Part shown: in pieces, positions 5,557 to 18,931 of the stretch
Numbering within the stretch: the first letter of the stretch is position 1
Layout of the letters: the number at the start of each line of letters is the position of its first letter
Origin: a virus
DNA length: 30,030 nucleotides
Virus record (IMG/VR): IMGVR_UViG_3300003629_000010
Span: 1-30,030 of that record
Reading direction: 5' to 3' (one strand)
Translations under genes and position numbers: made by a program
Notes under the pieces: model-generated
Database searches by the model: none
What the model was told of the DNA's origin: nothing
Seen by the model: only the letters and a program-made list of their open reading frames with translations

Positions 5557-6418
5557 AGAAGACAACAACAAACAAGAAGAAGAAGATGTGGTTCGGGAGA
5601 ACCAGATGAAGAAAAGAGTTTTGAAAAAACAGGAAAATCAGGAAGTAGGCGATTACCTACTGGTCAACGAAGGAACGATGGACATGGACATGGATGCATG
5701 GTATATCGACGTGAAGGAGGACGGCGACCTTATCGAGCAAATCCCTCAGACACGTGTCATGAAACAGATTCACGGCATGTCTCAGAACCAAGTGAAGAAA
5801 TTGATGCGTAACAACACCGAGAAAGTGTTTGAAATGGGTGACGCCCCTGAATGGGTGCGTGGAGTTCACAGCATGTACGACCTTGCCGGAGACGGATTCC
5901 AAATCAGTTTCGAGTACTTGATGGGTGAAACCGCTTTAGCTAAGTACATGGACGAAAACGGCGTTCATGAAGAATGGGTTATTACGTATGGTCCTGACCA
6001 AGCAGTGCTGACAGCTAAGAAAGAGTACAGCGACTCCTTCCCTGACAAGGATTGGGAGACAGTCGGTCATGCCTCGGCAGTTATCGGTACGGAGATGACG
6101 CAGATGGATTGGGCTGAAAACAACCCGGAAGTTGAGACTAAAACCTTTGAGGACTGGAACTACGTTGAGGAAGTCGAGCATTTAGACGACCTTGCTGATG
6201 AAGAGGTTGTTCAAGAGTCGATGAGCGGTGTTGTATGCGGCATGTACGATGAAGGCACCGAGGTTGAGTTAGTGGTTCAGAGATTGGGTGACAGTTTCCG
6301 TTTCAAGATTAACGATGAAGCGTTTTATTACTGGATTAACGACCCTGTTGAGAACCCGTTAAGTTTCAGGTTGCCTGATTGGGCGATTATGATGCTTCAG
6401 GAGGATGATTACGTATGA
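5549..6418 (+). CDS. Acidic protein, unknown function
   Basis: This encodes 289 residues starting MSKEDNNKQEEEDVV. The ATG at 5549 is preferred over an in-frame GTG at 5540 because AGGTG at 5538-5542 is well placed for it. It overlaps the end of the Cas4-like gene by 8 bases, suggesting joint expression and perhaps joint function. The protein is strongly acidic, with a charged N-terminal 40 residues and then a probably globular part rich in Trp and Met. No domain recognised. Its place between the nuclease and the tRNA block suggests an early role in DNA metabolism. Confidence 0.78.
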   Translation: MSKEDNNKQEEEDVVRENQMKKRVLKKQENQEVGDYLLVNEGTMDMDMDAWYIDVKEDGDLIEQIPQTRVMKQIHGMSQNQVKKLMRNNTEKVFEMGDAPEWVRGVHSMYDLAGDGFQISFEYLMGETALAKYMDENGVHEEWVITYGPDQAVLTAKKEYSDSFPDKDWETVGHASAVIGTEMTQMDWAENNPEVETKTFEDWNYVEEVEHLDDLADEEVVQESMSGVVCGMYDEGTEVELVVQRLGDSFRFKINDEAFYYWINDPVENPLSFRLPDWAIMMLQEDDYV

Positions 6419-6564
6419 CGGTTGTCGGCGACGTTAATAGGTGGCTTGACCGCCACGTTCTTCTTCCTTTGTACAGCATTGTTTATTTCCCGGAGCCTGA
6501 GACTCAGTTCCAAGCTGATGTGAATAAGTTGGTGAAGAAAAGGTTCGAGGGAAAACCTTTATAA
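6415..6564 (+). CDS. Small protein of 49 residues, unknown
   Basis: The start ATG overlaps the preceding stop (ATGA), a strong sign of translational coupling. It reads MTVVGDVNRWLDRHVLLPLY and ends KRFEGKPL, with its TAA inside the TATA box of the next promoter (6560-6565). It is the last gene of the operon that starts at 4576. It is slightly amphipathic and has no recognised motif. Confidence 0.6.
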   Translation: MTVVGDVNRWLDRHVLLPLYSIVYFPEPETQFQADVNKLVKKRFEGKPL

Positions 6565-6565
6565 A
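6560..6565 (+). promoter_or_regulatory. TATA promoter upstream of tRNA block
   Basis: CCTTTATAAAG with TATAAA 26 bp before ATG 6586. The unit resembles 4477-4520. Confidence 0.65.
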
Positions 6566-6585
6566 GCTTGGGAACTAATATGTTT

Positions 6586-6678
6586 ATGTCCGAAAGCCGT
6601 AAAAAGTTTCGGACCTGCGGTGTAAGGTTCGGTGGTCTTGTTTCCCTGCACCAGTCAGTCTGTCATAGGTTGATTTAA
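6586..6678 (+). CDS. Possible leaderless micro-ORF (30 residues)
   Basis: The frame reads MSESRKKFRTCGVRFGGLVS and ends at TAA 6676-6678. It sits at leaderless distance from a good TATA box. It is basic, unlike the acidic proteome. The transcript could instead be non-coding, because a strong hairpin (6687-6711) follows it. Confidence 0.3.
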   Translation: MSESRKKFRTCGVRFGGLVSLHQSVCHRLI

Positions 6679-6686
6679 ATTACAGC

Positions 6687-6711
6687 GGAGAGGTGAGGTA
6701 AAAGCCTCTCC
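6687..6711 (+). other. Stem-loop before tRNA block
   Basis: GGAGAGG and CCTCTCC form a perfect 7-bp stem around an 11-base loop. No T run follows, so a terminator is not certain; it may be the 3-prime part of a small RNA made from the 6560 promoter or a processing signal. Confidence 0.5.
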
Positions 6712-6724
6712 CCACATATTCTAC

Positions 6725-6735
6725 ATATATTTTAA
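6725..6735 (+). promoter_or_regulatory. TATA promoter for tRNA cluster
   Basis: ATATATTTTAA lies about 20 bp before the first base of tRNA-Ala. This AT-rich box is the only promoter-like sequence between the hairpin and the tRNAs. Confidence 0.55.
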
Positions 6736-6745
6736 TTTACAAAGG

Positions 6746-6819
6746 GGGCTTCTGGTCTAATCTGGCAAGACGCTCGTTTTGCATACGAGAAACTCTCGGT
6801 TCAAATCCGAGGAAGTCCA
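6746..6819 (+). tRNA. tRNA-Ala (anticodon TGC)
   Basis: The acceptor GGGCTTC pairs with GAAGTCC, with G-U at the third pair, the identity mark of tRNA-Ala. The D stem is GTCT/AGAC. Anticodon stem CTCGT/ACGAG surrounds the loop TTTGCAT, giving anticodon TGC for GCA codons. The T arm is CTCGG-TTCAAAT-CCGAG, and the discriminator is A. CCA is not encoded, as is common in archaea. Confidence 0.93.
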
Positions 6820-6832
6820 TAATGGTTTTGAT

Positions 6833-6907
6833 GCGGGGTTGTTCCAGCACGGTCTACGATGCCAAACTGTCTATTTGGCGACCCGGATTCAAATTCCGGA
6901 CCCTGCG
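6833..6907 (+). tRNA. tRNA-Asp (anticodon GTC)
   Basis: The acceptor GCGGGGT pairs with ACCCTGC (one G-U). Anticodon stem CCAAA/TTTGG surrounds the loop CTGTCTA, giving GTC. The T arm is CCGGA-TTCAAAT-TCCGG. The discriminator is G, the expected identity base for aspartate. The D stem is weak (only about two good pairs) and position 37 is T, both unusual, so the gene may be divergent or slightly decayed. Confidence 0.85.
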
Positions 6908-6912
6908 CTTTA

Positions 6913-6962
6913 AGTGTTGGGAGCCTTGCCATGGCAGGTAAGCCCAGCACTACTTGTTTTTT
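6913..6962 (+). other. Hairpin spacer with T run between tRNA-Asp and tRNA-Thr
   Basis: AGTGTTGGG (6913-6921) pairs with CCCAGCACT (6943-6951) over 9 bp with one G-U, and an inner hairpin forms within CCTTGCCATGGCAGG. TTTTTT follows and touches the first base of tRNA-Thr. It looks like an intrinsic terminator, but in this position it would cut off tRNA-Thr unless that tRNA has its own start; it may instead guide tRNA processing. Confidence 0.55.
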
Positions 6963-7038
6963 GGATGTGTGGCAGAACTTGGTCGTATGTGCTCGTCTTG
7001 TAAACGAGATTATAAGGGTTCAAATCCCTTCGCATCCT
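6963..7038 (+). tRNA. tRNA-Thr (anticodon TGT)
   Basis: The acceptor GGATGTG pairs with CGCATCC (one G-U). The D stem GCAG/ATGT has three pairs. Anticodon stem CTCGT/ACGAG surrounds CTTGTAA, giving TGT for ACA codons. The T arm is AAGGG-TTCAAAT-CCCTT. The discriminator is T. The anticodon stem is identical to that of the viral tRNA-Ala. Confidence 0.92.
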
Positions 7039-7116
7039 TCTTTTCATGTAACTATTTTGCACGATATTGGGTGTATTAGGGACATGAAAGCTATATAGGT
7101 AAATCGGACGGGGTTT

Positions 7117-7165
7117 CCACCCTTGATTGGGCATGGGTAAACGGTTAGGATGTACCGAAGACCAC
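7117..7165 (+). repeat. Dispersed ~50-bp element, copy B
   Basis: Core CCACCCTTGATTGGGCATGG continues with GTAAACGGTTAGGATGTACC and GAAGACCAC. It lies in non-coding DNA after the tRNA genes. Its reverse complement matches copies C and D closely (CCGTTTACCCATGCCCAATC, and GTGGTCTTCGGTAC in copy D). Confidence 0.85.
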
Positions 7166-7373
7166 GCACTTTGTTTAGACGGGCGGTTTTAACAGGTGCT
7201 TAACATGCTCTCTAAACGTGAAAACCCGGTTTCAGTGAGTCATGCGCAACTGGCTGGTCCATCACTGCTATGAGATTAACAAACACCAACACCTTTATAA
7301 GTGCAAGCAACCAAACACTTCAATACAAGGTTGAAAGCATTTTTCGAGGGAAAAGTGGGTGCACCACAACCCT
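7166..7373 (+). other. Gene-free stretch with an orphan promoter
   Basis: No convincing reading frame or tRNA is seen. It holds ACCTTTATAAG (TATA at 7296-7301) with no ATG at leaderless distance, so a short non-coding or long-leader transcript may start near 7324. The palindrome GGTGCACC (7358-7365), extended imperfectly to GTGGGTGCACCAC, sits just upstream of the next TATA box and could be an operator. Confidence 0.45.
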
Positions 7374-7379
7374 TATAAA
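7374..7379 (+). promoter_or_regulatory. TATA promoter for gene 7419
   Basis: CCTTATAAATG, TATAAA 45 bp before ATG 7419. The region just before the ATG (ATATACAGAGTTGATT) nearly repeats the leader of the 9128 gene; GAGTTGAT is one mismatch from a perfect archaeal SD. Confidence 0.7.
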
Positions 7380-7418
7380 TGACTTAAACCTATATATTAT
7401 ATACAGAGTTGATTCAAT

Positions 7419-7766
7419 ATGACAGAACAAGACTCAAATCAAAAAGTTTCAGAGCAAGAACAGCTCATCAAAACCTTTACAGAAAATCAGTCAGCAATCA
7501 ACAACGCTGACATCGTAGAAATCGAGAGAACAGAAAGCGGAGACATCGCACTTCAAATCTACGGACAGAAACCTGAAGAGCAGTACAGAGTAATCATCAA
7601 CGGCGACTTCGAAGTAGTAGGTAAATCAATCATAACTGAGGAGGACAAAGCAGCAATCCGAGCCATTGATGAAGCAAACGAGAAAGCATTCGAGCAAGCA
7701 ATGAAAAGCGACGAAGAAGTTCTTTACGACGCAATCGTCAGCAAGGTGAAGTCACTGTGGAAGTAA
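7419..7766 (+). CDS. Small early protein, paralogue of gene 8074
   Basis: This encodes 115 residues, acidic and predicted soluble. The N-terminal 25 residues are Gln and Glu rich. The region from about residue 30 (ADIVEIERTESGDIALQ) through VIINGDFEVVGKSIITEEDK to the C-terminus aligns with the product of 8074 (VVIEGDFDVMTDSLISEEDK), so the two form a paralogous pair. The family is not recognised. It is first in a transcription unit with promoter and leader at 7374, and overlaps the next gene. Confidence 0.78.
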   Translation: MTEQDSNQKVSEQEQLIKTFTENQSAINNADIVEIERTESGDIALQIYGQKPEEQYRVIINGDFEVVGKSIITEEDKAAIRAIDEANEKAFEQAMKSDEEVLYDAIVSKVKSLWK

Positions 7767-7975
7767 CGAAGACACTTCACGGATGGATGACAGGTAAAGA
7801 GATGCGTGACTTGAAGAAGTACAGCGACATTGACAACATCACCGCTGACCACATGGAAGCGTTCACACGTACGAACGACGAAGACAGCATGTACTACAAT
7901 TCGACGTATGACCTTGAGCATAAAAAACTTATTTATGAGAGACGGCAGCGCATGTATGACGGTGAACTACCATGA
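7757..7975 (+). CDS. Small protein, unknown function
   Basis: This encodes 72 residues from a GTG start at 7757, supported by AGGTGA at 7744-7749 (7 bases before it) and by an overlap of 10 bases with the preceding gene. It reads MEVTKTLHGWMTGKEMRDLK and is rich in charged residues and Tyr in the C-terminal half. Its TGA overlaps the TATA region of the next promoter. No family recognised. Confidence 0.65.
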   Translation: MEVTKTLHGWMTGKEMRDLKKYSDIDNITADHMEAFTRTNDEDSMYYNSTYDLEHKKLIYERRQRMYDGELP

Positions 7976-8053
7976 CCTTTATAAATAGGGGCGGGCAATT
8001 AGTTATTACAAGAGACGAAAGGCGAAACGAAGCTTCCCAAGCCTTTATAAATA
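7976..8053 (+). promoter_or_regulatory. Tandem TATA promoters before gene 8074
   Basis: CCTTTATAAATAGGGG occurs twice, at 7977-7992 and 8042-8057, 65 bp apart. The second (TATAAA at 8046-8051) lies 28 bp before ATG 8074. The first has no start codon at leaderless distance and would give a leader of about 70 bases. The region between is open in the 8074 frame only because the promoter happens to lack stops. Confidence 0.7.
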
Positions 8054-8073
8054 GGGGGGCGCAACACAATACT

Positions 8074-8382
8074 ATGGTGAAACAACCAATGACAAACAAC
8101 AACACAAACGACACAGCACAGACAGAACAGTTTAGAATCGAACAGGCAGAAACCCTTGACATAAAAAACGAAGACGGTAAAACCACTTTGACAGTGAAGA
8201 CAGGTGAACCGAGCATGGAGCAAGTAGTAATCGAAGGCGATTTCGACGTAATGACAGACAGCCTTATCAGTGAAGAAGACAAAGAGCTTTTAGCAGCTGA
8301 AATCAACGACAAACTTGTGAAAGCTCGTAGAAGCCCTGAAGTACAGCTCGTCTACCGAATCTACAACAAGGTGTTCGGATAA
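8074..8382 (+). CDS. Small early protein, paralogue of gene 7419
   Basis: This encodes 102 residues starting MVKQPMTNNNTNDTAQTEQ. The start is set by the TATA box 28 bp upstream; the frame is open to 7972, but the extra part would encode the duplicated promoter (two FINRG phrases). An Asn/Thr/Gln-rich N-terminus is followed by a conserved domain shared with the 7419 product, including VIEGDFDVMTDSLISEEDK. The C-terminus ends VYRIYNKVFG, matching VKSLWK in the paralogue. Function unknown. Its stop overlaps the next ATG. Confidence 0.75.
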   Translation: MVKQPMTNNNTNDTAQTEQFRIEQAETLDIKNEDGKTTLTVKTGEPSMEQVVIEGDFDVMTDSLISEEDKELLAAEINDKLVKARRSPEVQLVYRIYNKVFG

Positions 8383-8756
8383 TGGCGAAGTACAACTTTG
8401 ACGAACTTCACGACTTTGCGGATTACGTTGAAAAATATTTCAGCGGAGACCGTAAACTGAACATGGGGAACGACGACTTCGAACGCAAAGCAATCAAGAG
8501 AGACGGCGATGTAGCATACATGAAGTTTGAAGTCAATGAAAACTTTGACGCAGTTGCTACATGTATCAAGGTGCCGGCTCAAGACGAGTGGCTTTGTTTT
8601 TTCCCGAAGTTCAGTCACAAACCTTTGGAGCAGATGCATGAAGTCCTTAGTGAGGTCAACAACGACAATCATGAACGGAATGACAGGCATCCAACCAGTG
8701 AGGAGAAAACCGAGGAAGAAGATTTCAACGGTATGGAGGAGTGGGAAAGCCTTTAA
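8382..8756 (+). CDS. Acidic protein, unknown function
   Basis: This encodes 124 residues starting MAKYNFDELHDFADYVEKYF. The start overlaps the preceding TAA by one base (TAATG), so it is coupled to the 8074 gene. The first 90 residues look globular with beta strands (DVAYMKFEVNENFDAVATCI). The last 30 are highly charged (HPTSEEKTEEEDF). No family recognised. Confidence 0.72.
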   Translation: MAKYNFDELHDFADYVEKYFSGDRKLNMGNDDFERKAIKRDGDVAYMKFEVNENFDAVATCIKVPAQDEWLCFFPKFSHKPLEQMHEVLSEVNNDNHERNDRHPTSEEKTEEEDFNGMEEWESL

Positions 8757-8785
8757 AAGGGCTGACTCTTCGCCACCCATACCTT

Positions 8786-8834
8786 TATTAATGAAAGAAA
8801 CCAATATATTTTTTACACAAACAGTTAATTGAGG
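8786..8834 (+). promoter_or_regulatory. Promoter and SD for AbrB-like gene
   Basis: ACCTTTATTAATG with TATTAA at 8786-8791, a leader, then GAGGT at 8830-8834, 9 bases before ATG 8844. Confidence 0.55.
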
Positions 8835-8843
8835 TTAATTATT

Positions 8844-9068
8844 ATGGATGAAAACAAGACAAACGAGACTTTTTTGAAGAGCAAAACCACAAGAGTAGGT
8901 AACAGTATGTATCTCCTGCTTCCTGACGAGGTCATCGAGGATTTGAACCTTCACAGGAAGGATACAGAGGTACGGCTGAAAGTTGAGCAGGGTAAGCACG
9001 GCAAGTATTTAAGTGCTTGGAATCCTGAGCAGCAAAAATCCGAAAGCAGTAAAAGGGTTGAGGGGTAA
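8844..9068 (+). CDS. AbrB/MazE-type transcription regulator
   Basis: This encodes 74 residues. The ATG at 8844 is chosen for the GAGGT at 9-base spacing. Residues 13-48 match the swapped-hairpin AbrB fold: KSKTTRVGNSMYLLLPDEV followed by IEDLNLHRKDTEVRLKVE. Such proteins dimerise and bind operator DNA; stand-alone copies are common archaeal and viral regulators. The C-terminal 25 residues are polar. It lies directly before the replication operon promoter (9082) and may control it or itself. A partner toxin was not seen, so an antitoxin role is less likely. Confidence 0.82.
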   Translation: MDENKTNETFLKSKTTRVGNSMYLLLPDEVIEDLNLHRKDTEVRLKVEQGKHGKYLSAWNPEQQKSESSKRVEG

Positions 9069-9081
9069 ACACCCTTACCTT

Positions 9082-9127
9082 TATAAATGCATATTACATA
9101 TATGTTATATACAAGAGTTGATTTACA
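9082..9127 (+). promoter_or_regulatory. Promoter and leader of replication operon
   Basis: ACCTTTATAAATG with TATAAA 46 bp before ATG 9128. ATACAAGAGTTGATT in the leader matches the 7419 leader and contains a near-SD GAGTTGAT. Confidence 0.75.
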
Positions 9128-9289
9128 ATGAACCAAGACAAACAAGACCAAAAGATTGAACAGTTAGAACAGGAACTCGCAGACCCTTCAAACTCTGCAA
9201 CAAAAGACTTCAAAATCATGGAAATCCTACAAAACATCGACGAAGGACTCGACAACGTAGAAAACAAAATCGACGAGGTGATTGAATAA
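9128..9289 (+). CDS. Small coiled-coil protein before primase-helicase
   Basis: This encodes 53 residues starting MNQDKQDQKIEQLEQEL. Heptad-like spacing of Ile, Leu and Val in both halves (IEQLEQEL and IDEGLDNVENKIDEVI) suggests a short coiled coil. The stop TAA overlaps the ATG of the primase-helicase (TAATG), so the two are coupled and probably made together. It may be an accessory or oligomerisation factor for the helicase; no family recognised. Confidence 0.72.
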   Translation: MNQDKQDQKIEQLEQELADPSNSATKDFKIMEILQNIDEGLDNVENKIDEVIE

Positions 9290-12285
9290 TGAGCATCAAC
9301 CTGAACACAGTAGCAGACGAACTCGGCATGAGACGTGACAACAGTCGAGGCGGCGAAGTACAGTACTTCTGCCCACAACACGACCAAGACACAGCCGACA
9401 TCACAGTAACAAACGGCGACAAATTCTTCTGCTTCCCATCAAGCGAAGGAGGGCACAGCCCTGTCACACTTGTCATGCACGCAGAAAACATTGACAAAAC
9501 AGCGGCAGTACAGTGGTTGAAAGAACACTTCCCTGACGAGTTCGGAGACGCAGACCAAGAAACAATTAAGAGAAGAGACGCAGCACGTCAAGTACTTGAA
9601 CACGTAACACAAGAAAGCCACGACCACTTGACAGAGAGAAAACAACAGTTAGCCGCCGACATCAAAGAAAACAGAAACCTGACAGACGACGACCTTGAAA
9701 AATACATGATTGGCTTCATGCATCAGGAAATCGTCAACGAAACAATCAACAAATTCGACAAACAAGCATTGATTGACTCAGGTATTTTCGGCGAGAACGA
9801 CGGAGAGATTTACAGCCACTTAGCCAACAGGATTACCTTGCCATACATGAACGCAGGGCGTACAACCTTCATGGCCGGACGTGCAACAGAAGAAAGCTAC
9901 AGTCAAGACCAGAAGTACAAGAAAGCTTACAACACTGACTACAATCACCACAGCTTGTTCAAGTTTGCAGGGAACGGCACAGAAACAGCAATTATCACAG
10001 AAGGATTTACCGACGCTATCTCCGCAGACAAAGCAGGGTTTGACACTTACAGCCCGGCAACAGTACAATTCAGAAGCGATGACATCCAGAAAGTAGTTGA
10101 GTCAGTTGACAACTACAGCAATGTCTACATCATCAACGACGGAGATGAAGCAGGGCAAGAAGGCGCAATGAAAACAGCAGACATCCTGACAAAAGAAGGT
10201 AACGAGCCTACAATTGTTCAGCTTGATGAAGGAATGGATTTAGATGACTGGACAACCGAGAACGGTTACGACCTCGGCGACTTGCTTGAAAGCGGTCAGT
10301 ACTACATGGATGAACTGGTTGACCTAACCAAAAACGGTGACAGGAAGGAGAGAAGTGACGCAAAACAGTCAATCTTCGAACTGGTGCAGTCATGGAATGA
10401 GATGCAGAGAAACGAATTGTTCCAAGACATGCCCGGAAGCCTTGAGAGAGTTCAGAAGGAGTACGAGTCTGTCACAGGAGACTCCGGAACCGAGCAGAGC
10501 ACTTCCGGTGTTTCCGACGATGTTACCCCTGAACAGGGCAAGGGTAAGGACACAGGATTGCCGGATGAACACGACCCCGGCGACAAATACTTCAGTGAAT
10601 CAGGTGCTTTCCGCTCCAACAAACTTGCTGAAGACATTGAAGACGACTACCACTTCATCTACAGCATGTTGGAGGAGAAGCTGTACGTTTACCAAGACGG
10701 TGTCTACGAAGACGCTGAAAGACTTGTGAAAGAACAAGCAAACCAGCGGCTTGGAGACTACTTTAAAAAGGCACGTGTAAACGACACAATGGAAGCAATC
10801 GAGACACGTCCCGGAGTAGCAAAGACACAGAAACAGATGCAGCCCCCAACACACTTAGTCAACTTCAACAACGGATTATTCAACTTGCAAGAAGGAGAGC
10901 TTGAAAGCCATGACCCGAAGTACACGTTCACACAGCAGATTCCACACGACTTCGACCGCACCGCAGATGACAGCGACATCAAAGACTTCGTAGAAGAAAT
11001 CACAGCAACAAAAGAAGATGCAGAGACAATCTACGAAATGACAGGTTACACAATGAACACTGCAATGCCTATCGCCAAAGCATTCATGATGGTTGGTCAA
11101 GGACAGAACGGTAAAACAGTTTTCCTGAACCTGTTAAGGACTGCAATCGGTCAAGAACACGTCAAAGACGAAACACTGCAGCAACTTGAAAACGGTAGAT
11201 TTGCTACACGCCACCTTTACAGGAAATTGATGGTTGTATGCGACGACCTACCGAGCGAAGAACTTGCAGAAGGAGGAACACTCAAGTCATTGACGGGAGG
11301 AAGTTCAGTGCGTGCCGAAATCAAGGGAGGAGACTCTTTCGAGTTCGACAACTACGCACTACCTGTCATGGCAGCAAACGAAGTACCGAAGTCACAAGAC
11401 CAGTCTGACGGTTTCTTCCGGCGTTGGGAGATTATTGACTTCCCTTACAGATTCGTGCAGAACCCTGACAGCAACAAGCCTCATGAGAAACGGGCAACAC
11501 CGAAAATGAAGTTGAACAGGAAACTTCACGACGAAGAACAACTCAGCGGGTTCGTCACACAAGCAGTCCTCGCCTTTAAAAAGGTTTGGGACAAAGGAGA
11601 GTTCACTCACAGCCAACAACCACAGGAAACACGTACAAAATGGAACAGTTACGCAGACCCAACACTTGAGTTCCTGAACACGTACGTAGAAAGAGGAATC
11701 TCAAAGAGCGAGGCAAGTGAAAGAAGCCGTGACAACATTCAAGACCATCAGAACTACAACAGGTTCGACTACGACTTCATCGCAAAAGACGAGCTGCACA
11801 AAATGATTGAGTTATTCAATCAAAGCCGCAGCAACCGTCCGCCAACAAAGAACAAGTTGACACGGAGAATCAACAACGACACAGAACTGTACGCATCCAG
11901 CACTCGAAGCAACCAATCCAACTTCAAAGACGGAATGGTGTCAATTTACGGAAACATCCGTTACAACGAACAGTTCCAAAAGAAAATCGACGAAGCAAAC
12001 ACAGTCCAAGAGTTCAAAGCAAGTCTCGGCATCAGCAACGCCGAAGGAGAAATCCCGCACACAATCAAAGACAAGATTGAAAGCGGCGACTCCTCAGAAA
12101 CACTTGAAGAAGCAATGGAACGAGTCATGAAAGCAGCTCAAGACGAAGAAGGAATCGCAGACATGAACACATTGGTCGAAGACTCGCAAATGGACGAAGG
12201 CAAAGCAGAAGAAATCATCACACGGAAACTTGACGACGGCGAATGGTACGAACCACGACCCGGAAAAGTAGCCGAACTCAAATAA
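9289..12285 (+). CDS. Primase-helicase (TOPRIM primase plus SF3/D5-type helicase)
   Basis: This encodes 998 residues. The N-terminus has a CHC2-like zinc finger with C28 and H31 (YFCPQHDQD) and C48 (FFCFPSSEGG); the fourth ligand is absent. A TOPRIM fold follows with E238 (IITEGFTDA) and the DxD pair D284/D286 (INDGDEAG). A polar linker (about 390-440) leads to a D5-type domain and superfamily 3 helicase: Walker A GQGQNGKT (603-610), Walker B VCDDLP (650-654), sensor AANEVP (695-700) and arginines R711/R712 (FFRRWEIIDFP). The C-terminus (LDDGEWYEPRPGKVAEL) looks like a winged helix. It should prime and unwind viral DNA, with the polymerase supplied by the host. Confidence 0.92.
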   Translation: MSINLNTVADELGMRRDNSRGGEVQYFCPQHDQDTADITVTNGDKFFCFPSSEGGHSPVTLVMHAENIDKTAAVQWLKEHFPDEFGDADQETIKRRDAARQVLEHVTQESHDHLTERKQQLAADIKENRNLTDDDLEKYMIGFMHQEIVNETINKFDKQALIDSGIFGENDGEIYSHLANRITLPYMNAGRTTFMAGRATEESYSQDQKYKKAYNTDYNHHSLFKFAGNGTETAIITEGFTDAISADKAGFDTYSPATVQFRSDDIQKVVESVDNYSNVYIINDGDEAGQEGAMKTADILTKEGNEPTIVQLDEGMDLDDWTTENGYDLGDLLESGQYYMDELVDLTKNGDRKERSDAKQSIFELVQSWNEMQRNELFQDMPGSLERVQKEYESVTGDSGTEQSTSGVSDDVTPEQGKGKDTGLPDEHDPGDKYFSESGAFRSNKLAEDIEDDYHFIYSMLEEKLYVYQDGVYEDAERLVKEQANQRLGDYFKKARVNDTMEAIETRPGVAKTQKQMQPPTHLVNFNNGLFNLQEGELESHDPKYTFTQQIPHDFDRTADDSDIKDFVEEITATKEDAETIYEMTGYTMNTAMPIAKAFMMVGQGQNGKTVFLNLLRTAIGQEHVKDETLQQLENGRFATRHLYRKLMVVCDDLPSEELAEGGTLKSLTGGSSVRAEIKGGDSFEFDNYALPVMAANEVPKSQDQSDGFFRRWEIIDFPYRFVQNPDSNKPHEKRATPKMKLNRKLHDEEQLSGFVTQAVLAFKKVWDKGEFTHSQQPQETRTKWNSYADPTLEFLNTYVERGISKSEASERSRDNIQDHQNYNRFDYDFIAKDELHKMIELFNQSRSNRPPTKNKLTRRINNDTELYASSTRSNQSNFKDGMVSIYGNIRYNEQFQKKIDEANTVQEFKASLGISNAEGEIPHTIKDKIESGDSSETLEEAMERVMKAAQDEEGIADMNTLVEDSQMDEGKAEEIITRKLDDGEWYEPRPGKVAELK

Positions 12286-12310
12286 AAAAGGCTTTCATCC
12301 CTCTCTCCTC

Positions 12311-12323
12311 TTTTTTTTCTTTT
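12311..12323 (+). terminator. Oligo-T terminator of replication operon
   Basis: TTTTTTTTCTTTT after a pyrimidine-rich stretch, 26 bases after the primase-helicase stop. Confidence 0.65.
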
Positions 12324-12350
12324 CTAAACAGGCTTTAAATCAACGCTCTT

Positions 12351-12356
12351 TATAAA
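12351..12356 (+). promoter_or_regulatory. Orphan TATA box in intergenic region
   Basis: CTTTATAAAGG without any start codon at leaderless distance. It may be a second start for the RNA at 12428. Confidence 0.35.
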
Positions 12357-12406
12357 GGGTCATCCGTTACAGGTTGTTTAAAAGTATATCATTGGAGTAT
12401 ATCTTC

Positions 12407-12412
12407 TATAAA
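12407..12412 (+). promoter_or_regulatory. TATA box of candidate ncRNA, copy 1
   Basis: TATAAAGT, first base 21 bp before the conserved CCTCGGGG. Copy 2 has TATAAAGT at exactly the same spacing (25008 to 25029). Confidence 0.7.
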
Positions 12413-12427
12413 GTACTTAGCTATACG

Positions 12428-12521
12428 CCTCGGGGTTTCGGGGTTTTTCGGAAAACCTATAACGCACGCCCGTGCGCATGTAATTCTGACTGAGTTATTG
12501 GAAAAAGGGCGAACCCCCGAA
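12428..12521 (+). ncRNA. Candidate structured RNA, copy 1 (94 nt, two-copy family)
   Basis: It aligns without gaps to 25029-25122 over exactly 94 nt with 68 identical positions by hand count; the first 22 and last 13 bases are identical and the middle has diverged. The ends pair: TCGGGG with CCCCGA, then TT/AA and CG/CG, a 3x3 GGG/GGG internal loop, then TTTTTC with GAAAAA. The apical part contains CGCAC-GCCC-GTGCG, a 5-bp hairpin. CTATAACGC is conserved at offset 29-37 in both copies. The TATA box at fixed spacing suggests a transcript starting near the stem. A DNA-level role such as a replication origin is the main alternative. Confidence 0.6.
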
Positions 12522-12682
12522 GGATAGAGCTTACCGCCTTATTTACAGTATAACTTGCGGATATTGTTTTATACAGTACTTGTTTATAAAAGGGGGCGGG
12601 TTAGAGGTGGTTTCGCCACTGTTCTGGTACGGGCGGTGCGGAAACCATTACCTTTATAAATAACAATAACTATATATTTTAT
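12522..12682 (+). promoter_or_regulatory. Intergenic region with promoter of RHH gene
   Basis: ACCTTTATAAATAAC with TATAAA at 12655-12660 lies 28 bp before ATG 12683. Upstream are another TATA-like TTTATAAAAGGGGG (12583-12596) without a start codon and a small hairpin GTGG-TTTCG-CCAC near 12607. No coding frame is seen. Confidence 0.6.
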
Positions 12683-12814
12683 ATGTCTATGAGACAGAAG
12701 AACTTAAATATCCGAGAGGACCAGCAAACATATTTAGAAGAAAACCATTTAAACTTCAGCAAACTCGTACGAGAGCTACTGGACGAACACATGGAAGAAG
12801 AGCGTGAAGAGTAA
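12683..12814 (+). CDS. Ribbon-helix-helix (CopG/Arc-like) regulator
   Basis: This encodes 43 residues starting MSMRQKNLNIREDQQTYLEE; a start at the second ATG (12689) is possible. A short beta strand (QKNLNIR) is followed by two helices (EDQQTYLEEN and NFSKLVRELLDEHMEE), the fold of ribbon-helix-helix repressors, which bind DNA as dimers through the strand. The spacing and the S-K-L-V-R-E-L-L-D phrase fit small archaeal family members well. The promoter is leaderless, and the stop overlaps the next ATG. It probably controls its own operon or the switch between early and late genes. Confidence 0.75.
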   Translation: MSMRQKNLNIREDQQTYLEENHLNFSKLVRELLDEHMEEEREE

Positions 12815-13317
12815 TGAAAGAGAAAACCACTGAAGCATACACACTTATCGACCCGAGGAAACTGCCGACCGAACTGGACACAAACCTGACCGAAGAATTT
12901 ATAAAAGAAGGTTTCAACCATTTCGTCGACAAAAACATGATGCTTTACACAAAAATCATGGAAGAAAGCAGCGAACTTGACCTAACCTACAGCGAACCAT
13001 CACGGTTCAAAAAGGCGAAGGACAAATACGTAGGCAGCAAAACACCTGTCAAATCAGGTTACGCACGAGTCCACGAGTTCATCGTTTCACTGGCGGAAGT
13101 AGCTGACATGACACAGGAGCAAGCAGCAATCCACATGGTGAACCACGGAGTCATGAACATGGACGGTAAAGGTTGCAGCAGCGAGTCAGAGTACGGTGCT
13201 ATCCAGACAGAGGCGGCAAACATCGACCTTAAAATCAGGGATGAGCTTGGTGTAGAAACCGAGATGGAAGAGGTTGAACCTGTTGACGAGGAAGAGGTGA
13301 AGAATAGCCGTGAATAA
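12814..13317 (+). CDS. Protein of unknown function
   Basis: This encodes 167 residues starting MKEKTTEAYTLIDPRKLP. The start overlaps the preceding stop (TAATG). It is acidic, mostly helical by composition, with an EFIVSLAEVADMTQEQAA segment and a C-terminal acidic tail (EMEEVEPVDEEEV). The last codons overlap the start of the 13310 gene. No family recognised. Its position between an RHH regulator and small genes upstream of the packaging block is typical of accessory viral genes. Confidence 0.73.
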   Translation: MKEKTTEAYTLIDPRKLPTELDTNLTEEFIKEGFNHFVDKNMMLYTKIMEESSELDLTYSEPSRFKKAKDKYVGSKTPVKSGYARVHEFIVSLAEVADMTQEQAAIHMVNHGVMNMDGKGCSSESEYGAIQTEAANIDLKIRDELGVETEMEEVEPVDEEEVKNSRE

Positions 13318-13540
13318 GAAGCATGTACTTATCAGGATTGGCTTGATTGCCGCAGTACTGCTTGCCGTAGGCGTTTTCCAAGGCGCTGACTTTGGCGGCG
13401 AGACAGATTACGAGCCGTGCGAACCTATCATGACTGCTCCGGATGTTGACATGAAGTGTGTTGACGGTGACTGGGTTGACCAAGGGAACGACACCTTTAT
13501 AAATGTGTATAACCAATCAATTATTACGGAGGTGACATGA
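13310..13540 (+). CDS. Small protein with one N-terminal membrane segment
   Basis: This encodes 76 residues from a GTG at 13310, which overlaps the previous gene by 8 bases and follows an AGAGGTGAA stretch at 13293-13301. MNKKHVLIRIG is followed by the hydrophobic LIAAVLLAVGVF (a membrane anchor or signal peptide) and an acidic outer part with two cysteines (EPCEP, MKCVDG) that could form a disulfide. The promoter of the next gene lies inside its 3-prime end. It could be membrane anchored or secreted; a lysis or exclusion role is possible but unproven. Confidence 0.6.
   Translation: MNKKHVLIRIGLIAAVLLAVGVFQGADFGGETDYEPCEPIMTAPDVDMKCVDGDWVDQGNDTFINVYNQSIITEVT
13498..13535 (+). promoter_or_regulatory. 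Internal promoter and full SD for gene 13543
   Basis: ACCTTTATAAATG inside the preceding gene, TATAAA 45 bp before ATG 13543. GGAGGTGA at 13528-13535 matches the archaeal anti-SD over 8 bases, 7 bases before the ATG. Confidence 0.7.
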
Positions 13541-13542
13541 AC

Positions 13543-13629
13543 ATGACAGAAAAACAGGACCAGCAGGTTTGGGCGGATTGGCTTGACCCTGTACTTGAAT
13601 GGTTTGCGTCGGGTTACGGCGACAAATAA
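13543..13629 (+). CDS. Micro-protein of 28 residues
   Basis: Reads MTEKQDQQVWADWLDPVLEW and ends GYGDK. The ATG at 13543 is preferred to the ATG at 13537 because the perfect GGAGGTGA SD would be only one base from the latter. A dedicated promoter, the best SD in the window and an oligo-T terminator after it argue that this is a real short gene. It is acidic with three Trp and could form one amphipathic helix. Function unknown. Confidence 0.55.
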   Translation: MTEKQDQQVWADWLDPVLEWFASGYGDK

Positions 13630-13642
13630 GTTTCCACATATA

Positions 13643-13660
13643 TTTTTTCTACTTTTTTCT
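13643..13660 (+). terminator. Oligo-T terminator
   Basis: TTTTTTCTACTTTTTTCT after the micro-gene stop, before the packaging block. Confidence 0.6.
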
Positions 13661-13688
13661 TGCGTTTAGGTACTCCATCAGTTAGTTT

Positions 13689-13726
13689 TATAAAGGCTGA
13701 TTACCCATTTATATTTATCGAGAGGT
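13689..13726 (+). promoter_or_regulatory. Promoter and SD of packaging block
   Basis: TTAGTTTTATAAAGG with TATAAA at 13689-13694, 47 bp before ATG 13736. AGAGGT lies about 9 bases before the ATG. Confidence 0.7.
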
Positions 13727-13735
13727 ACGAGAAAA

Positions 13736-14203
13736 ATGGCAGACATAAAGGATTATAGAAGTGTTGAAGTTCCGGATGAAAAGGATTTTGAGGATTACAG
13801 TTACCATGAGAGACGTGCTTATATTTATGAGGGTGCGTTGGAGAATGGCGGTGTCCGGATGCTTGATGAGACGTACAGGGAGATGGCTGACAAGTTTGAT
13901 GTCCATACTTCTACTATCGGCGATGATGTTGATGCTGTACGTGAAGCTATTTTAAAGTTTGAGTTTACTAAGGAGAACATCCGTGAAGACGTTGCCTCTA
14001 CTTTGATGTGGATAAGTAAGAAGGCACGTGAGGAAGGTGACATGTCTACGGCTCGTAAAGCTACTAAGACTTATAAGGATTGGGCTATGGAGCTTGGCAT
14101 TGAAGAAAAGGAGCCTGAACGTGTTGAGGTCAGTCATGAAGGCGCTTTTGCTGATAAACTCGCTGATATTTACGAAGACGAAACCGGCGACGGGGAGGAG
14201 TAA
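13736..14203 (+). CDS. Terminase small subunit-like DNA-binding protein
   Basis: This encodes 155 residues. A helix-turn-helix is seen at about residues 46-70 (ETYREMADKFDVHTSTIGDD), followed by a long helical region (DVASTLMWISKKAREEGD) and an acidic tail. An N-terminal HTH with a helical oligomerisation domain, two genes before TerL, is the normal arrangement of a small terminase subunit, which recognises the packaging site and activates TerL. The call rests on fold and position. It starts the late packaging operon, with promoter and SD upstream. Confidence 0.68.
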   Translation: MADIKDYRSVEVPDEKDFEDYSYHERRAYIYEGALENGGVRMLDETYREMADKFDVHTSTIGDDVDAVREAILKFEFTKENIREDVASTLMWISKKAREEGDMSTARKATKTYKDWAMELGIEEKEPERVEVSHEGAFADKLADIYEDETGDGEE

Positions 14204-14210
14204 GTTTTTT

Positions 14211-14519
14211 ATGGTTGATTACAGTAACTGGGATGATATACCCGGTGATTGGGCACGGTCGGAGATACAGGATATGTACGATGACGTAACCATGCTCCTG
14301 ACGGAGGACCCGGACCGGCTTGACGGAGAGTTAGCGGAGTTGTACCGTTCTGCAGAGAGACACTTTGATGCTCACAACGAGTTGGCACGGGACGAAGAAT
14401 ATGCGGATGCTTTCTACGAGTTGGAGGCGGCGCATGATGACCGAGTCAGTTTTGACATGATATTGAAAGGTTTAAATAAGGAAGCAATAGGTGAGGGCTA
14501 TGAGTTCGACTATGAATGA
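14211..14519 (+). CDS. Small acidic protein between TerS and TerL, unknown
   Basis: This encodes 102 residues starting MVDYSNWDDIPGDWARSE. The ATG at 14211 lies 7 bases after the TerS-like stop; the frame is open upstream but that part lies inside the TerS gene. The protein is very acidic and helical (LDGELAELYRSAERHFDAHN). It overlaps the TerL start. It may be a packaging accessory factor; no family recognised. Confidence 0.7.
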   Translation: MVDYSNWDDIPGDWARSEIQDMYDDVTMLLTEDPDRLDGELAELYRSAERHFDAHNELARDEEYADAFYELEAAHDDRVSFDMILKGLNKEAIGEGYEFDYE

Positions 14520-15903
14520 TGAACACGAGGATTTGTGGCGTAAAGCTATCAGGAATCAGGATGGTCATGCGATTGCACAGCAGTTGTACGACGTTGATTT
14601 GTTCGGCGGTCAGGCGGAGATAGTTAATGACATCAGTTTTGACCGTGAGAAGCGTTTGGCGATTGTGACTCCGTCTCAGTATGGTAAGACTTGGGGGATT
14701 GCGGCAGCTCTCGGAATATATATTCTCCTGCACAGAGATAAGAATGTTGTAGTGATTTCAGGTACTTCTAAGCAGGCTGAGATTATGAGGAACAAGTTTG
14801 CAGAGTTTTTGGCGGAGTGCCCGCCTTTAGCCGACCTTGTGGAACAAAGTAAGCGTGGACCTGAGGACTTGAAGAAGGAAGCATCCAAGGAAAGGATTAC
14901 GTTCAGTAATGGCTGCGAATTAAGGACTTTGACGGCTGGCGGACGGAATGATGCACAGTCATTGATGGGATTCGGTGCCGACATGATAATATTGGATGAG
15001 TCTAACCTTGTCAGTGACGAGATATATGAGAAACGTATTCTACGTATGCTTGGTAACAGTGAGGACGCTACACTGGTGCAGATTGGCAACCCGACGACAA
15101 GGAACCATTTTTATGAGGCGTGTAAGAAGAAAGATAATTACAAGTTCATCCACGTTGACCATGAGCAGGCTGTTGAAGAAGGTAGTTTTACGCAGGAGCA
15201 TGTTGATGAGCTGCGTGAGGAGATGACGGACCGTAACTTCAAGGTTAATATCATGGCGGAGTTCCCTGACCGTGACAGCGATAACACGTTGATTCAGTAC
15301 AGTAAGTTGCAGGAAGCACAGGGTAAGGAAGTGCCTGAATGCGACAAAGAACCGACGGCTTTGTACGGGCTTGACGTAGCACGTATGGGTGATGACAGCA
15401 CTGTGTTGACTCGTGTTGAGAGATGTAATGGTTTTTATGAGGTTACTGATACTTGGAAGTGGGATATTGGCGACACTATGCGTATTGCGAACAAGGTTGA
15501 AACTATCATGAATGAGCGTGGTGAGGAACACGTGAATGTGGATACGCACGGCATCGGCAGCGGTGTTCAAGACCGTTTGAATGAGAAAGGTTTGTACAGT
15601 GTCGGGTTGAAAGTAGGTATGTCTGCCGATAATAAAGACCAATTCCTCAGAAAGAAGTCGGAATATTTTTGGAAGCTTCGTTCAATCTTCGAAGATGGTG
15701 ATATAAGTATACCTGAAAGCAATCAGGAACTGTTTAATGATTTAGACGATATGAGAATTGAGTATAATGCGAGAGATAAGGTTAAAATTGCAGACCCTGA
15801 TAACAGGAGTCCTGACTTTGCCGACAGCTTAATGCTCGCTATAGCTTATGAGAGAAACAATGGAAGAAAAATGGATGTAGGGTCTTATCCTGCTCAGTTT
15901 TAA
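14500..15903 (+). CDS. terL: Terminase large subunit
   Basis: This encodes 467 residues. ATG 14500 is chosen because AGGTGA at 14489-14494 lies 5 bases before it; GTG 14491 and ATG 14512 are alternatives. ATPase: Walker A TPSQYGKT (57-64), Walker B DMIILDE (161-167), coupling motif QIGNPTT (194-200). RNase H-like nuclease: D292 (YGLDVARMGDD), D348 (VNVDTHGIG) and D439/D442 (SPDFADSL). It binds the portal, drives DNA into the prohead and cuts it. It overlaps the preceding gene. Its TAA shares the TTAA at 15900-15903 with the stop of the opposing HNH gene. Confidence 0.95.
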   Translation: MSSTMNDEHEDLWRKAIRNQDGHAIAQQLYDVDLFGGQAEIVNDISFDREKRLAIVTPSQYGKTWGIAAALGIYILLHRDKNVVVISGTSKQAEIMRNKFAEFLAECPPLADLVEQSKRGPEDLKKEASKERITFSNGCELRTLTAGGRNDAQSLMGFGADMIILDESNLVSDEIYEKRILRMLGNSEDATLVQIGNPTTRNHFYEACKKKDNYKFIHVDHEQAVEEGSFTQEHVDELREEMTDRNFKVNIMAEFPDRDSDNTLIQYSKLQEAQGKEVPECDKEPTALYGLDVARMGDDSTVLTRVERCNGFYEVTDTWKWDIGDTMRIANKVETIMNERGEEHVNVDTHGIGSGVQDRLNEKGLYSVGLKVGMSADNKDQFLRKKSEYFWKLRSIFEDGDISIPESNQELFNDLDDMRIEYNARDKVKIADPDNRSPDFADSLMLAIAYERNNGRKMDVGSYPAQF

Positions 15904-16559
15904 TCTTTGATACCGAGCCTGTTTTTCTGGACTTTGACAGGTTGTTGTTCCAGTTCTCTATGATGTTCTTTACATAGAGCTACAAGATTGTCAAGGTAGT
16001 TCGCTTCTTCCGGTTTGTCGAACGTTCTTAATGGTTTGATGTGGTGTACGCTCGGTTTCCTTCCTATTTCTTCTTCTGTTTTGCCACATATTTTACACAT
16101 GTGGTTGTCTCTTTCAAGGGTTCGCTCACGCATTTTAGCCCAGTTGTAACCGTAATCAGCATTTTTTGGAAGGCTTTTTTCCTTCCAGTTTGGATGGTCT
16201 TTTCCTCGGTTATTTTCTGATGTCCAGTTTGCTTCGCATTCTTTGTCACAAAAGTTTTTTTCGTGCATGTTTACAAACGATTGAGGTTTAGTTGTTTTTT
16301 CTCCGCAATAATCACATACAACTTCTTCTTGTCCTGATTCGTGTTTGCACTCTATGCTACAGAATTTTCCTCTGCCTTGTTTTATTCTTGATGTGGTTTC
16401 TTGGAATTTTTCTCCACAGTTGTTGCATTTGCACGTTTCTTTTGCATCTACTGAGGTTTGATAGCATTTTTTGCTGCAGTAGTTTTCTTCATCGTTTATT
16501 TCTGACGGGTACTTCTCAAATTCATCGCCACAGTAGTCACATGAAAGTTTTATAGCCAT
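15900..16559 (-). CDS. HNH endonuclease with three N-terminal zinc fingers
   Basis: This encodes 219 residues, the only clear minus-strand gene. Three treble-clef-like zinc modules, each C-x2-C then C-x3-C, fill the first 100 residues (LSCDYCGDEF, KCNNCGEKF, VVCDYCGEKT). The HNH core is HMCKICG, then SVHHIKP, then DNLVALCKEHH near the C-terminus. Free-standing HNH nucleases next to TerL may be homing enzymes or packaging cofactors as in HK97; the opposite strand and private promoter favour a mobile homing-type gene. The zinc modules are shared with the divergent gene at 16738. Confidence 0.88.
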   Translation of the reverse strand: MAIKLSCDYCGDEFEKYPSEINDEENYCSKKCYQTSVDAKETCKCNNCGEKFQETTSRIKQGRGKFCSIECKHESGQEEVVCDYCGEKTTKPQSFVNMHEKNFCDKECEANWTSENNRGKDHPNWKEKSLPKNADYGYNWAKMRERTLERDNHMCKICGKTEEEIGRKPSVHHIKPLRTFDKPEEANYLDNLVALCKEHHRELEQQPVKVQKNRLGIKD

Positions 16560-16587
16560 TGTAACATAATATAATTAGTTCTCAACA

Positions 16588-16595
16588 TTTATAAA
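16588..16595 (-). promoter_or_regulatory. TATA promoter of HNH gene (minus strand)
   Basis: The palindromic TTTATAAA lies on the minus strand as CCTTTATAAATG, 34 bp before the HNH ATG. Downstream of it AACTAATTATATTATG resembles other viral promoter regions. Confidence 0.65.
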
Positions 16596-16614
16596 GGTGG
16601 TGGCGGTTGTTTAA

Positions 16615-16673
16615 CGGTGTTTCTTGCCTGTTTACCCATGCCCAATCAGGGGTGGATGTACCCGGGACCGCAC
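16615..16673 (-). repeat. Dispersed ~50-bp element, copy C
   Basis: GTTTACCCATGCCCAATCAG then GGGTGG is the reverse complement of the core of copy B. To its left CGGTGTTTCTTGCC matches copy D; to its right GGATGTACCCGGGACCGCAC resembles the outer half of copy B in the opposite sense, so this copy is nearly a full dyad. It lies between the divergent HNH and zinc-finger genes. Confidence 0.85.
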
Positions 16674-16704
16674 ACCTTTACCTATGTTGGACGGTCCGAA
16701 AACG

Positions 16705-16712
16705 TTTTAAAA
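16705..16712 (+). promoter_or_regulatory. TATA promoter of zinc-finger gene
   Basis: TTTTAAAA about 30 bp before ATG 16738. Confidence 0.5.
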
Positions 16713-16737
16713 GTCATTACCTAATTAATAAGTATGT

Positions 16738-17001
16738 ATGAGTAAAATAATTCTACAATGCGCCAATTGCGGCGACAGTTTCAAACGATACCCGTCCAAA
16801 GTAACGTCGGGGAAAGACTTTTGCAGCCGAGAATGCTACCGAGAAGACGCAGATAAAAAAGTTGAGGTCGAATGCGACGGATGCGGCGACACCTACATGA
16901 AACACAGGTCGGAGGTTGACCGTACAAACCATGATTTCTGCAGTACTCGGTGCCACAGCAAATACTTGAGCAGCCATGAGTCTTGGCTAAGGGACAAGTA
17001 G
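16738..17001 (+). CDS. Two-module zinc-finger protein related to HNH N-terminus
   Basis: This encodes 87 residues with two zinc modules, C-x2-C then C-x3-C (LQCANCGDSFKRYPSKV, and VECDGCGDTYMKHRSEV). The first closely resembles module one of the adjacent HNH protein (LSCDYCGDEFEKYPSEI). There is no nuclease domain; the protein ends SSHESWLRDK soon after the second module. It may be a DNA-binding protein derived from an HNH gene, or the remnant of a second HNH gene that lost its catalytic end. It is divergent from the HNH gene across repeat element copy C, and its stop is followed directly by the next promoter. Confidence 0.75.
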   Translation: MSKIILQCANCGDSFKRYPSKVTSGKDFCSRECYREDADKKVEVECDGCGDTYMKHRSEVDRTNHDFCSTRCHSKYLSSHESWLRDK

Positions 17002-17010
17002 TTTTATAAA
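17002..17010 (+). promoter_or_regulatory. TATA promoter of prohead protease gene
   Basis: AGTTTTATAAAGG directly after the TAG of the zinc-finger gene; TATAAA at 17005-17010, 34 bp before ATG 17039. Confidence 0.7.
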
Positions 17011-17038
17011 GGTAAGGAATTAAACTTATTATTATATT

Positions 17039-18784
17039 ATGAGCGATGATTTTAACCCGGGGAAGGTAGGACTTGTCGCAGAAAATTTAACTGTTCAACA
17101 GACAGAAAGCGACGGAGTATCCGTTGAAGGAATGGCGCTGCCGTTTGAGGAAGTGTCACGTAACGGTGTTCAGTACAGCCGTGAATCTGTTGAGGAAAAC
17201 GCTGAGTCCATGGAAGGATGCAGTATTTTATTTAACCATCAGGAGGATGAGGTAATCGGTCACGTTACAAGTGTAGAAGTACGTGATGACGGTCTTTATT
17301 ACGAGGCTGACCTGAATCCGAACCACAGATTTGTGGAAGGTGGCTACATTGAGAGAGGAGACATTTCTAACGTTTCAATTCAGGCGATTGTTGAACCGCA
17401 TAACGGTGATACGCCGCTTGTAGATGTTAAGGAGTTCCTTGAATTGTCAATGGTTACTGTACCCGGTTTCACTGATGCAGAGGTTGCAGAGGTTGAAGCT
17501 GTTCCGGAAGGAGTGGCTACAGTCGAGAGTTTTGTCGGCGACGAAGATGTTGCTGGCGAGCCAATGGGCGAGTACGATGATTTCGAGGATTGTGTGCAGG
17601 ATAATCAGGATAAGGATGACCCTGAGGCTTACTGCGGTGCTATCAAAGATGCTACTGAAGAGGTTGACGGTGTTGAAACTGTTCCGCCTGCGGAAGTAGC
17701 TGAGGAAGCACGGACGGCTTTGGATGCACGTGACAACTCAGAGTTTGACAATGATGAATGCGGTACTGACACTGGTTGGGAGAGAGCTAACCAGTTAGAT
17801 AACCGTGAAAGTCTTTCTGCAGACACTGTTGACCGTATGGTAAGCTTTTTCGACCGTCATGAAGGGAATGAAGTAGTTGATGGAGACGGTCCTAAGGAAG
17901 AGGACTGCGGTTGGTTGATGCATAAGGCTTGGGGTGGCGACGAAGGTCGTGACTGGGCTGAAGCAAAGCAGGAAGAAATTGAAGACGCACAAAGCGAAGA
18001 AGAATACGACGAGGATGATGTAGAGGTACGTGACATCGACGGTAACGCTGAAGAGCAGGATGACCCTTGCTGGGATGGTTACACGATGGTAGGTACTAAG
18101 CCAAACGGTAATCCGCGTTGCGTACCCGATGATGAAGTTGATGACTTTGACGCAGACGAATCAGAGAAAGAAGAGTCTTTTGATGATGCTGCACAGGTTA
18201 TCAGGATGTACATGGAGCAGGCTATTCAGGAAATCAGCGATGAGTTCGAGGAAGAAAACGTTAAAATCGGAGAAGAAGATATTGAAAGAGGTGTAAATAG
18301 TATTATGACAAATTCAGACGAAGATGAAGTTTCAGAAGCAGTTGAGCTTGACAGCGTTATTTCCGTTGTTGAGAGACACATGAATCAAATGATTGAGGAC
18401 CTTGAATCCATGGAAATGGATGATGAAGAGGAACCTGAAGATGAACCTGAGGACGAGCCAGAAGACGGCGAAGACGAACCTGAGGAAGAAGGTGATTACA
18501 TGGACGACGAAGAAGAAGAGGAATCACAGGAATCAGTTGAGGATGAATCAGGCGACGAGTCTGAGGAAGAGGAAGCTGAGGAAGTAATGAGTCAGGCAAT
18601 GGAAGATGATGAGGAAGATGAAGATGGTGACGTCGAGGAATCTGAAGAGGAAGAATCCGAGGAAGAATCAGAGGACGATGAGGAATCTGAGGAGACTGAG
18701 GAAGAAGCTGTAAGTCAGAGAGGCAGTCAAATCTCTGAGACAGAAAGCGAGTCGTTCAAAGGTAGAATCCCGTCACTTGGGTAA
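17039..18784 (+). CDS. Prohead protease with acidic scaffold-like C-terminus
   Basis: This encodes 581 residues. Residues 20-150 form an HK97-type (S78) prohead protease: H67 (ILFNHQED), S113 (ISNVSIQAI) and the conserved FLELSMVTVPGFTDAEV. Next come a W-x-R-A-N-Q-L region (GWERANQLDNRESLS, FFDRHEGN, KAWGGDEGRDWAE) known from larger prohead proteases, and a motif PCWDGYTMVGTKPNGNPRCV. A helical part (about 380-440) leads into an extreme Asp/Glu-rich low-complexity tail (18421-18720) that probably acts as the built-in scaffold. It processes and shapes the procapsid. An oligo-T terminator follows. Confidence 0.88.
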   Translation: MSDDFNPGKVGLVAENLTVQQTESDGVSVEGMALPFEEVSRNGVQYSRESVEENAESMEGCSILFNHQEDEVIGHVTSVEVRDDGLYYEADLNPNHRFVEGGYIERGDISNVSIQAIVEPHNGDTPLVDVKEFLELSMVTVPGFTDAEVAEVEAVPEGVATVESFVGDEDVAGEPMGEYDDFEDCVQDNQDKDDPEAYCGAIKDATEEVDGVETVPPAEVAEEARTALDARDNSEFDNDECGTDTGWERANQLDNRESLSADTVDRMVSFFDRHEGNEVVDGDGPKEEDCGWLMHKAWGGDEGRDWAEAKQEEIEDAQSEEEYDEDDVEVRDIDGNAEEQDDPCWDGYTMVGTKPNGNPRCVPDDEVDDFDADESEKEESFDDAAQVIRMYMEQAIQEISDEFEEENVKIGEEDIERGVNSIMTNSDEDEVSEAVELDSVISVVERHMNQMIEDLESMEMDDEEEPEDEPEDEPEDGEDEPEEEGDYMDDEEEEESQESVEDESGDESEEEEAEEVMSQAMEDDEEDEDGDVEESEEEESEEESEDDEESEETEEEAVSQRGSQISETESESFKGRIPSLG

Positions 18785-18798
18785 GCCTTTCGGCGGCA

Positions 18799-18922: not shown

Positions 18923-18931
18923 AAATTTTTT

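Follow-up and report, generated by a model that had tools for sequence, protein, structure and literature searches.

The two-copy element described here is best read, with a probability of about 0.55, as a promoter-bearing intergenic repeat whose inverted downstream part would be an operator or form a hairpin in the leader, carried by an orphan tailed virus of a halophilic archaeon. Most likely it belongs to a known kind of promoter repeat and would be kin to the repeats of halovirus HF2 by layout and mode of action, not by homology. Its homologous blocks, TATA box and HF2-like arrangement can be read directly in the sequence; what is new is the inverted downstream arm together with a fixed middle block, both with putative roles.

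The virus and its host

The window, i.e. the whole stretch of 30,030 nucleotides analyzed here (IMG/VR record IMGVR_UViG_3300003629_000010), has identical first and last 99 bases; it therefore represents a circular genome of 29,931 bp and a complete virus record. Its genes include those for portal, terminase, HK97-type capsid, neck and tail-tube proteins. The predicted proteome is strongly acidic, most proteins having a pI of 4.0–4.9 and D plus E amounting to about 20%, and TTTATAAA boxes precede genes, many of which have starts that look leaderless. The acidic proteins, together with the boxes and leaderless starts, point to a halophilic archaeon as host, and a member of the Nanohalarchaeota would be our guess, given acidic proteins that contain lysine and a GC content of 45%. 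For the protein encoded at 13736–14203, relatives could be detected in tailed viruses of haloarchaea only, such as PhiCh1, phiH, HCTV-2, HSTV-1 and HHTV-2. This HTH-like protein of PHROG 15023 is conserved across several families of such viruses and is found upstream of the terminase also in HCTV-2 and HHTV-2.

Searches of the phage collection, of IMG/VR and of 28 Nanohalarchaeota genomes revealed no close relative of the virus, and none was found with its primase and tail-tube proteins in IMG/VR or its capsid protein in bacterial and archaeal genomes. (The genome also contains three clustered tRNA genes at 6746–7038, for Ala-TGC, Asp-GTC and Thr-TGT, and at 21215–23674, between the capsid and neck genes, encodes a protein of 819 aa with WD40-type beta-propeller repeats).

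Sequence and extent of the two copies

A previous sequence-only reading had described a 94-nt element at 12428–12521 and 25029–25122, and its account of the alignment holds in all respects: the two copies align without gaps with 68 of 94 positions identical, the first 22 and last 13 bases (columns 1–22 and 82–94) are the same, CTATAACGC is fixed at element positions 30–38 and the first base of TATAAAGT is 21 nt ahead of the element in each copy. No other exact repeat in the 29,931-bp circle is as long as the 22-mer; in 40 dinucleotide shuffles the longest repeat measured 14.4 on average and 17 at most. Homology extends upstream of the 94 nt, from ATATCAT (12386/24987) to the right arm, over ~135 nt. 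In the 41 nt from 12387, 21 positions are identical to copy 2 and the matches are concentrated in TATCAT and TATAAAGT; beyond the shared block the flanks agree no more than expected by chance (27/100 upstream, 21/79 downstream). The element is thus composed of conserved blocks, namely ATATCAT, TATAAAGT, the 22-nt left arm, CTATAACGC and the right arm (table 1), separated by diverged spacers that keep their length throughout, with CTATAACGC, TGAGTT and the inverted right arm in the same register in both copies. The left arm holds TCGGGGTT twice in tandem; an exact complement of this unit is absent from the virus, the right arms coming nearest. Exactly two copies are present in this genome, both intergenic and sharing no ORF (ATG then TAA in copy 1, ATG then AGT TGA in copy 2).

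Table 1. Coordinates, in the window, of the element blocks and of other features mentioned in the text
Feature	Position	Strand	Remarks
Copy 1 upstream block ATATCAT (alpha-like)	12386–12392	+	Identical to, and in same register as, 24987–24993
Copy 1 TATA box TATAAAGT	12407–12414	+	8/8 identical amid diverged flanks; motif as in the other TTTATAAA promoters of the virus
Copy 1 left arm CCTCGGGGTTTCGGGGTTTTTC (gamma-like block)	12428–12449	+	22/22 identical
Copy 1 fixed middle block CTATAACGC	12457–12465	+	Identical to copy 2
Copy 1 right arm, inverted with respect to left arm	12501–12520	+	16/20 complementary to 12430–12449; attained by 0/300 shuffles
Copy 2 upstream block ATATCAT	24987–24993	+	Identical to copy 1
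Copy 2 TATA box TATAAAGT	25008–25015	+	8/8 identical to copy 1
Copy 2 left arm	25029–25050	+	22/22 identical to copy 1
Copy 2 fixed middle block CTATAACGC	25058–25066	+	Identical to copy 1
Copy 2 right arm, inverted with respect to left arm	25102–25121	+	Register of copy 1; best 20-mer arm pair 15/20, attained by 3/300 shuffles
D5-type primase-helicase gene	9289–12285		
~60-nt repeat family	4128–4190	+	
~60-nt repeat family	7110–7173	+	
~60-nt repeat family	16602–16664	-	
~60-nt repeat family	24654–24720	-	

Promoter and start site

The proposal that the element carries its own promoter gains support from the complete retention of TATAAAGT between diverged flanks and from a layout that agrees with that of the mapped HF2 repeat promoters. 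In the latter, transcription was mapped to begin on a G of the gamma block, at a distance of 26 nt from the first T of the TATA motif (PMC8707807). Applied to our element, this rule predicts +1 at G 12433 and G 25034, which correspond to the sixth base of the left arm, the G of GGGG, with a range of about 12430–12436 in copy 1; both the promoter activity and the start position are what we infer from HF2. In the leaderless genes of this virus the ATG is found 28–36 nt, mostly 30–31 nt, after the first T of TTTATAAA.

Since the predicted start falls inside the left arm, the first five or so of its identical bases are probably untranscribed from this promoter. An identical arm straddling the start site would fit a sequence-reading protein or a constraint on the start region, and RNA pairing by itself would be insufficient to account for it; pairing could suffice if the true start is a few bases further upstream, or if the transcript originates at another promoter before the element, for instance that at 12349. 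Further TATA boxes are located between the element and the next gene, at 12583 and 12653 for copy 1 and at 25147 for copy 2, so that the element need not drive the operon at either place; its transcript might run on into the operon or stop as a short RNA.

Genomic context and promoter classes

The primase-helicase gene ends 140 bp before copy 1, which is located in the widest gap between genes (402 bp) and at the border of the early and late modules, as these are assigned from gene content. Copy 2 lies at the border of the head and tail modules, before the tail genes, and overlaps the neck gene by one base: the A that opens its ATATCAT also closes the stop codon of gene 24709–24987. The ordinary promoters of the virus differ between modules: xCC precedes the TTTATAAA box at 9 of 12 sites within 4.0–13.6 kb versus 1 of 10 elsewhere (Fisher p = 0.004), whereas GG follows it at 1 of 12 versus 8 of 10 (p = 0.0015). 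The form ACC-TTTATAAA is found in the replication-side module (4475–13496) and AGT-TTTATAAA-GG, often then GTTACC, in the structural module (665 and 13687–25147). These two classes suggest that early and late genes may use a different basal factor or regulator; the TATA boxes of the element fit neither class.

Several other features were noted along the genome. Base composition switches sharply near 12.5 kb, AT skew being high in the replication-side genes at 4500–12500 and low in the structural genes at 13000–30030, and GC skew mostly low in the former and mostly positive in the latter. Gene 25277 is preceded by a leader of about 95 nt (25181–25276) with repeated CAAGCACGG and a GGAG-like ribosome site, in contrast with the many apparently leaderless genes. 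A second dispersed repeat family of ~60 nt, with the core CCACCC..TGGGCATGGGTAAA..GTAAGA, has the four copies listed in table 1, which are intergenic or overlap gene ends (one after the tRNA cluster, one upstream of an HNH gene), and a fifth, weaker match at 10516–10579 inside the primase gene; this family has no match in IMG/VR.

Pairing of the arms and folding

The sequence-only reading had further proposed a long stem with a symmetric 3x3 internal loop and a different GC hairpin in each copy, and these proposals stand in part. The stem, formed by element positions 3–22 and 74–93, is indeed found and its arms match better than nearly all shuffled sequences, but a further mismatch, T9.C87, is conserved in it, and copy 2 lacks the pair 22–74 unless the inner helix slips by one base; with this slip, six inner pairs are kept in both copies. 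The GC hairpins are real as folds but out of register, since pairs follow i+j=27 in copy 1 and i+j=25 in copy 2 (counted from the C of CTATAACGC), and the folding of the inner segment gives z = -2.1 in copy 1 and z = +0.5 in copy 2. The minimum free energy of the whole element is only mildly better than that of shuffles (z -1.9 and -1.5), and much the same energies are obtained when the reverse strand or DNA is folded.

The mismatched T9.C87 and GGG.GGG are nearly as conserved as the paired positions, as would be expected from recognition of the sequence. None of the 16 arm pairs is changed on both sides, a count of little power with two sequences and near-invariant arms. Covariance models of Rfam gave no match for the element. 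With no such match, no compensatory change in the arms and no conserved inner fold, the earlier proposal of a new, transcribed viral RNA family is not supported by the two sequences.

Searches for homologues

Neither the exact 22-mer nor the arm combined with CTATAACGC was found in IMG/VR; the sole arm match obtained with a variable gap lies inside a gene of a GC-rich tailed phage and was attributed to chance. Searches by nhmmer with the element remained at E > 0.1. The element was not found near relatives of TerL at 80 loci (26–30% identity, scanned by TerL alignment) or near relatives of the HTH protein at 11 halovirus loci. The 28 Nanohalarchaeota genomes contain two arm matches with three mismatches each (L030 and L031), the former inside an aminoacyl-tRNA synthetase-like gene, and yielded no TerL, no capsid and no convincing spacer. 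With blastn against plasmids and phages, copy 1 had no match and copy 2 had 33-nt matches to Pseudomonas phages with E = 0.1, considered chance. Across the collections searched, no homologue of the element appears in other viruses.

Two further candidates were rejected. A mimic of CRISPR repeats, with which the element presumably shares CGAACCC, was dropped because its arms are inverted, not direct; an archaeal ORB, which we take to contain a G-string, was dropped because the G-string of the element has the opposite orientation.

Alternative explanations

The conserved TATA box, the fixed length and the absence of a shared ORF would also fit a structured RNA acting by itself, i.e. a non-coding transcript of ~90–140 nt from the element promoter working as a small RNA in trans or in cis like the put sites of phage HK022. 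The arms could form a stem of 10+6 bp, the slipped inner helix retains its six pairs, the folding energy beats most shuffles and the copies stand at unit borders, as put sites come after two promoters. We consider this explanation a real but less likely alternative, since no arm pair has changed on both sides, the inner hairpins do not coincide in position between the copies, comparable scores result from folding the reverse strand or DNA, the expected start site would remove the outer end of the stem and Rfam contains no matching family. That the element is an archaeal put-like device, in which a nascent, promoter-linked hairpin would act in cis on two late transcription units and control how they are elongated or terminated, seems improbable; if true, it would constitute an archaeal counterpart of the HK022 put sites.

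For a DNA origin, which had been offered as the alternative to an RNA, we found no positive evidence. Two origins or initiator-binding sites with inverted arms, like oriL and oriR of SPP1, would be in keeping with the vicinity of copy 1 to the primase-helicase gene in the largest gap, with the climb of GC skew from about 0 to +0.25 at this copy and with the existence of phages having two origins (PMC3485210). However, the skew step coincides with the early/late border and with the drop in AT skew, no change in GC skew occurs at copy 2, the spacer is not AT-rich and the conserved TATA box would be left unexplained; a replication site seems improbable. Least probable of all is a recent-enough duplication, or a mobile or recombined intergenic segment, without function of its own. 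The presence of only two copies and the lack of relatives elsewhere would agree with this, but the blocks have stayed intact, and the spacers free of indels, although roughly every second spacer position differs between the copies, a combination that points to selection.

Proposed mode of action

If the element is a promoter-bearing repeat, TBP and TFB would bind TATAAAGT and transcription would begin on the G inside the left arm and proceed rightwards, producing one transcript from the early/late border (copy 1) and another from the head/tail border (copy 2). The left arm would function as a start-region or regulator-binding block akin to the gamma block of HF2, whereas the right arm, ~70 bp downstream, might either bind this regulator a second time or, in the nascent leader, supply the 3' side of a hairpin. 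Sharing their arms, both units could respond to one signal. Little is known of gene timing in tailed viruses of halophilic archaea, and if an orphan virus unrelated to HF2 has a third type of promoter, with an inverted arm built in, repeated promoters made of blocks would seem to be a device of general use. The element would also offer a compact system for separating a DNA-level operator from control by nascent RNA.

Comparison with known systems

The put sites of HK022, which act as RNA on E. coli RNA polymerase (PMC9378689), resemble the element in that putL and putR are two structured copies placed just downstream of promoters, at unit starts; they differ in that another polymerase would be involved here and the element, known from its sequence alone, has no covariation of paired bases. 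SPP1 oriL and oriR are likewise two related sites in one phage genome, one of them near replication genes, but no initiator gene or origin signature was found here, nor a skew change at copy 2. The antisense RNA Tant of phiH is a regulatory RNA of a tailed halovirus (PMC6210493, PMC8707807), but it is a counter-transcript complementary to an early mRNA and not a repeated hairpin.

HF2 is the only tailed virus of halophilic archaea for which we found experimentally tested repeat promoters. Its intergenic repeats comprise seven copies of class I, 58 bp long, and two of class II, 29 bp long; all those tested are active promoters, a gamma mutant lacks any activity and long module transcripts have some of the repeats at their 5' ends (PMC8707807). 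We aligned six class I repeats from AF222060. They start with an alpha block that is conserved in part, followed by the TATA/beta block TCTTTAAGTC; nine bases, most of them variable, then lead to the gamma block CGTCTaNTAGAGTGAGGA, where conservation ends. The order in our element is ATATCAT, TATAAAGT, 13 variable bases and CCTCGGGGTTTCGGGGTTTTTC. Neither alignment nor blastn against the phage collection, which gave no HF2 match, revealed sequence similarity between the two. The differences are that the distance from the TATA start to the beginning of the gamma-like block is 21 nt here and 17 nt in HF2, that the element has only two copies and that it adds ~70 nt of conserved downstream sequence with the inverted arm and middle block, which are absent from the HF2 repeats; as these are not conserved after gamma, the HF2 model leaves the right arm and middle block unexplained. 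The likenesses are nevertheless extensive: both systems belong to viruses of halophilic archaea, are intergenic and present in several copies (here two), combine identical blocks with variable spacers and have a TATA motif followed by a fixed block so placed as to hold the start on a G, and early and late classes are seen in the HF2 repeats as in the ordinary promoters of this virus.
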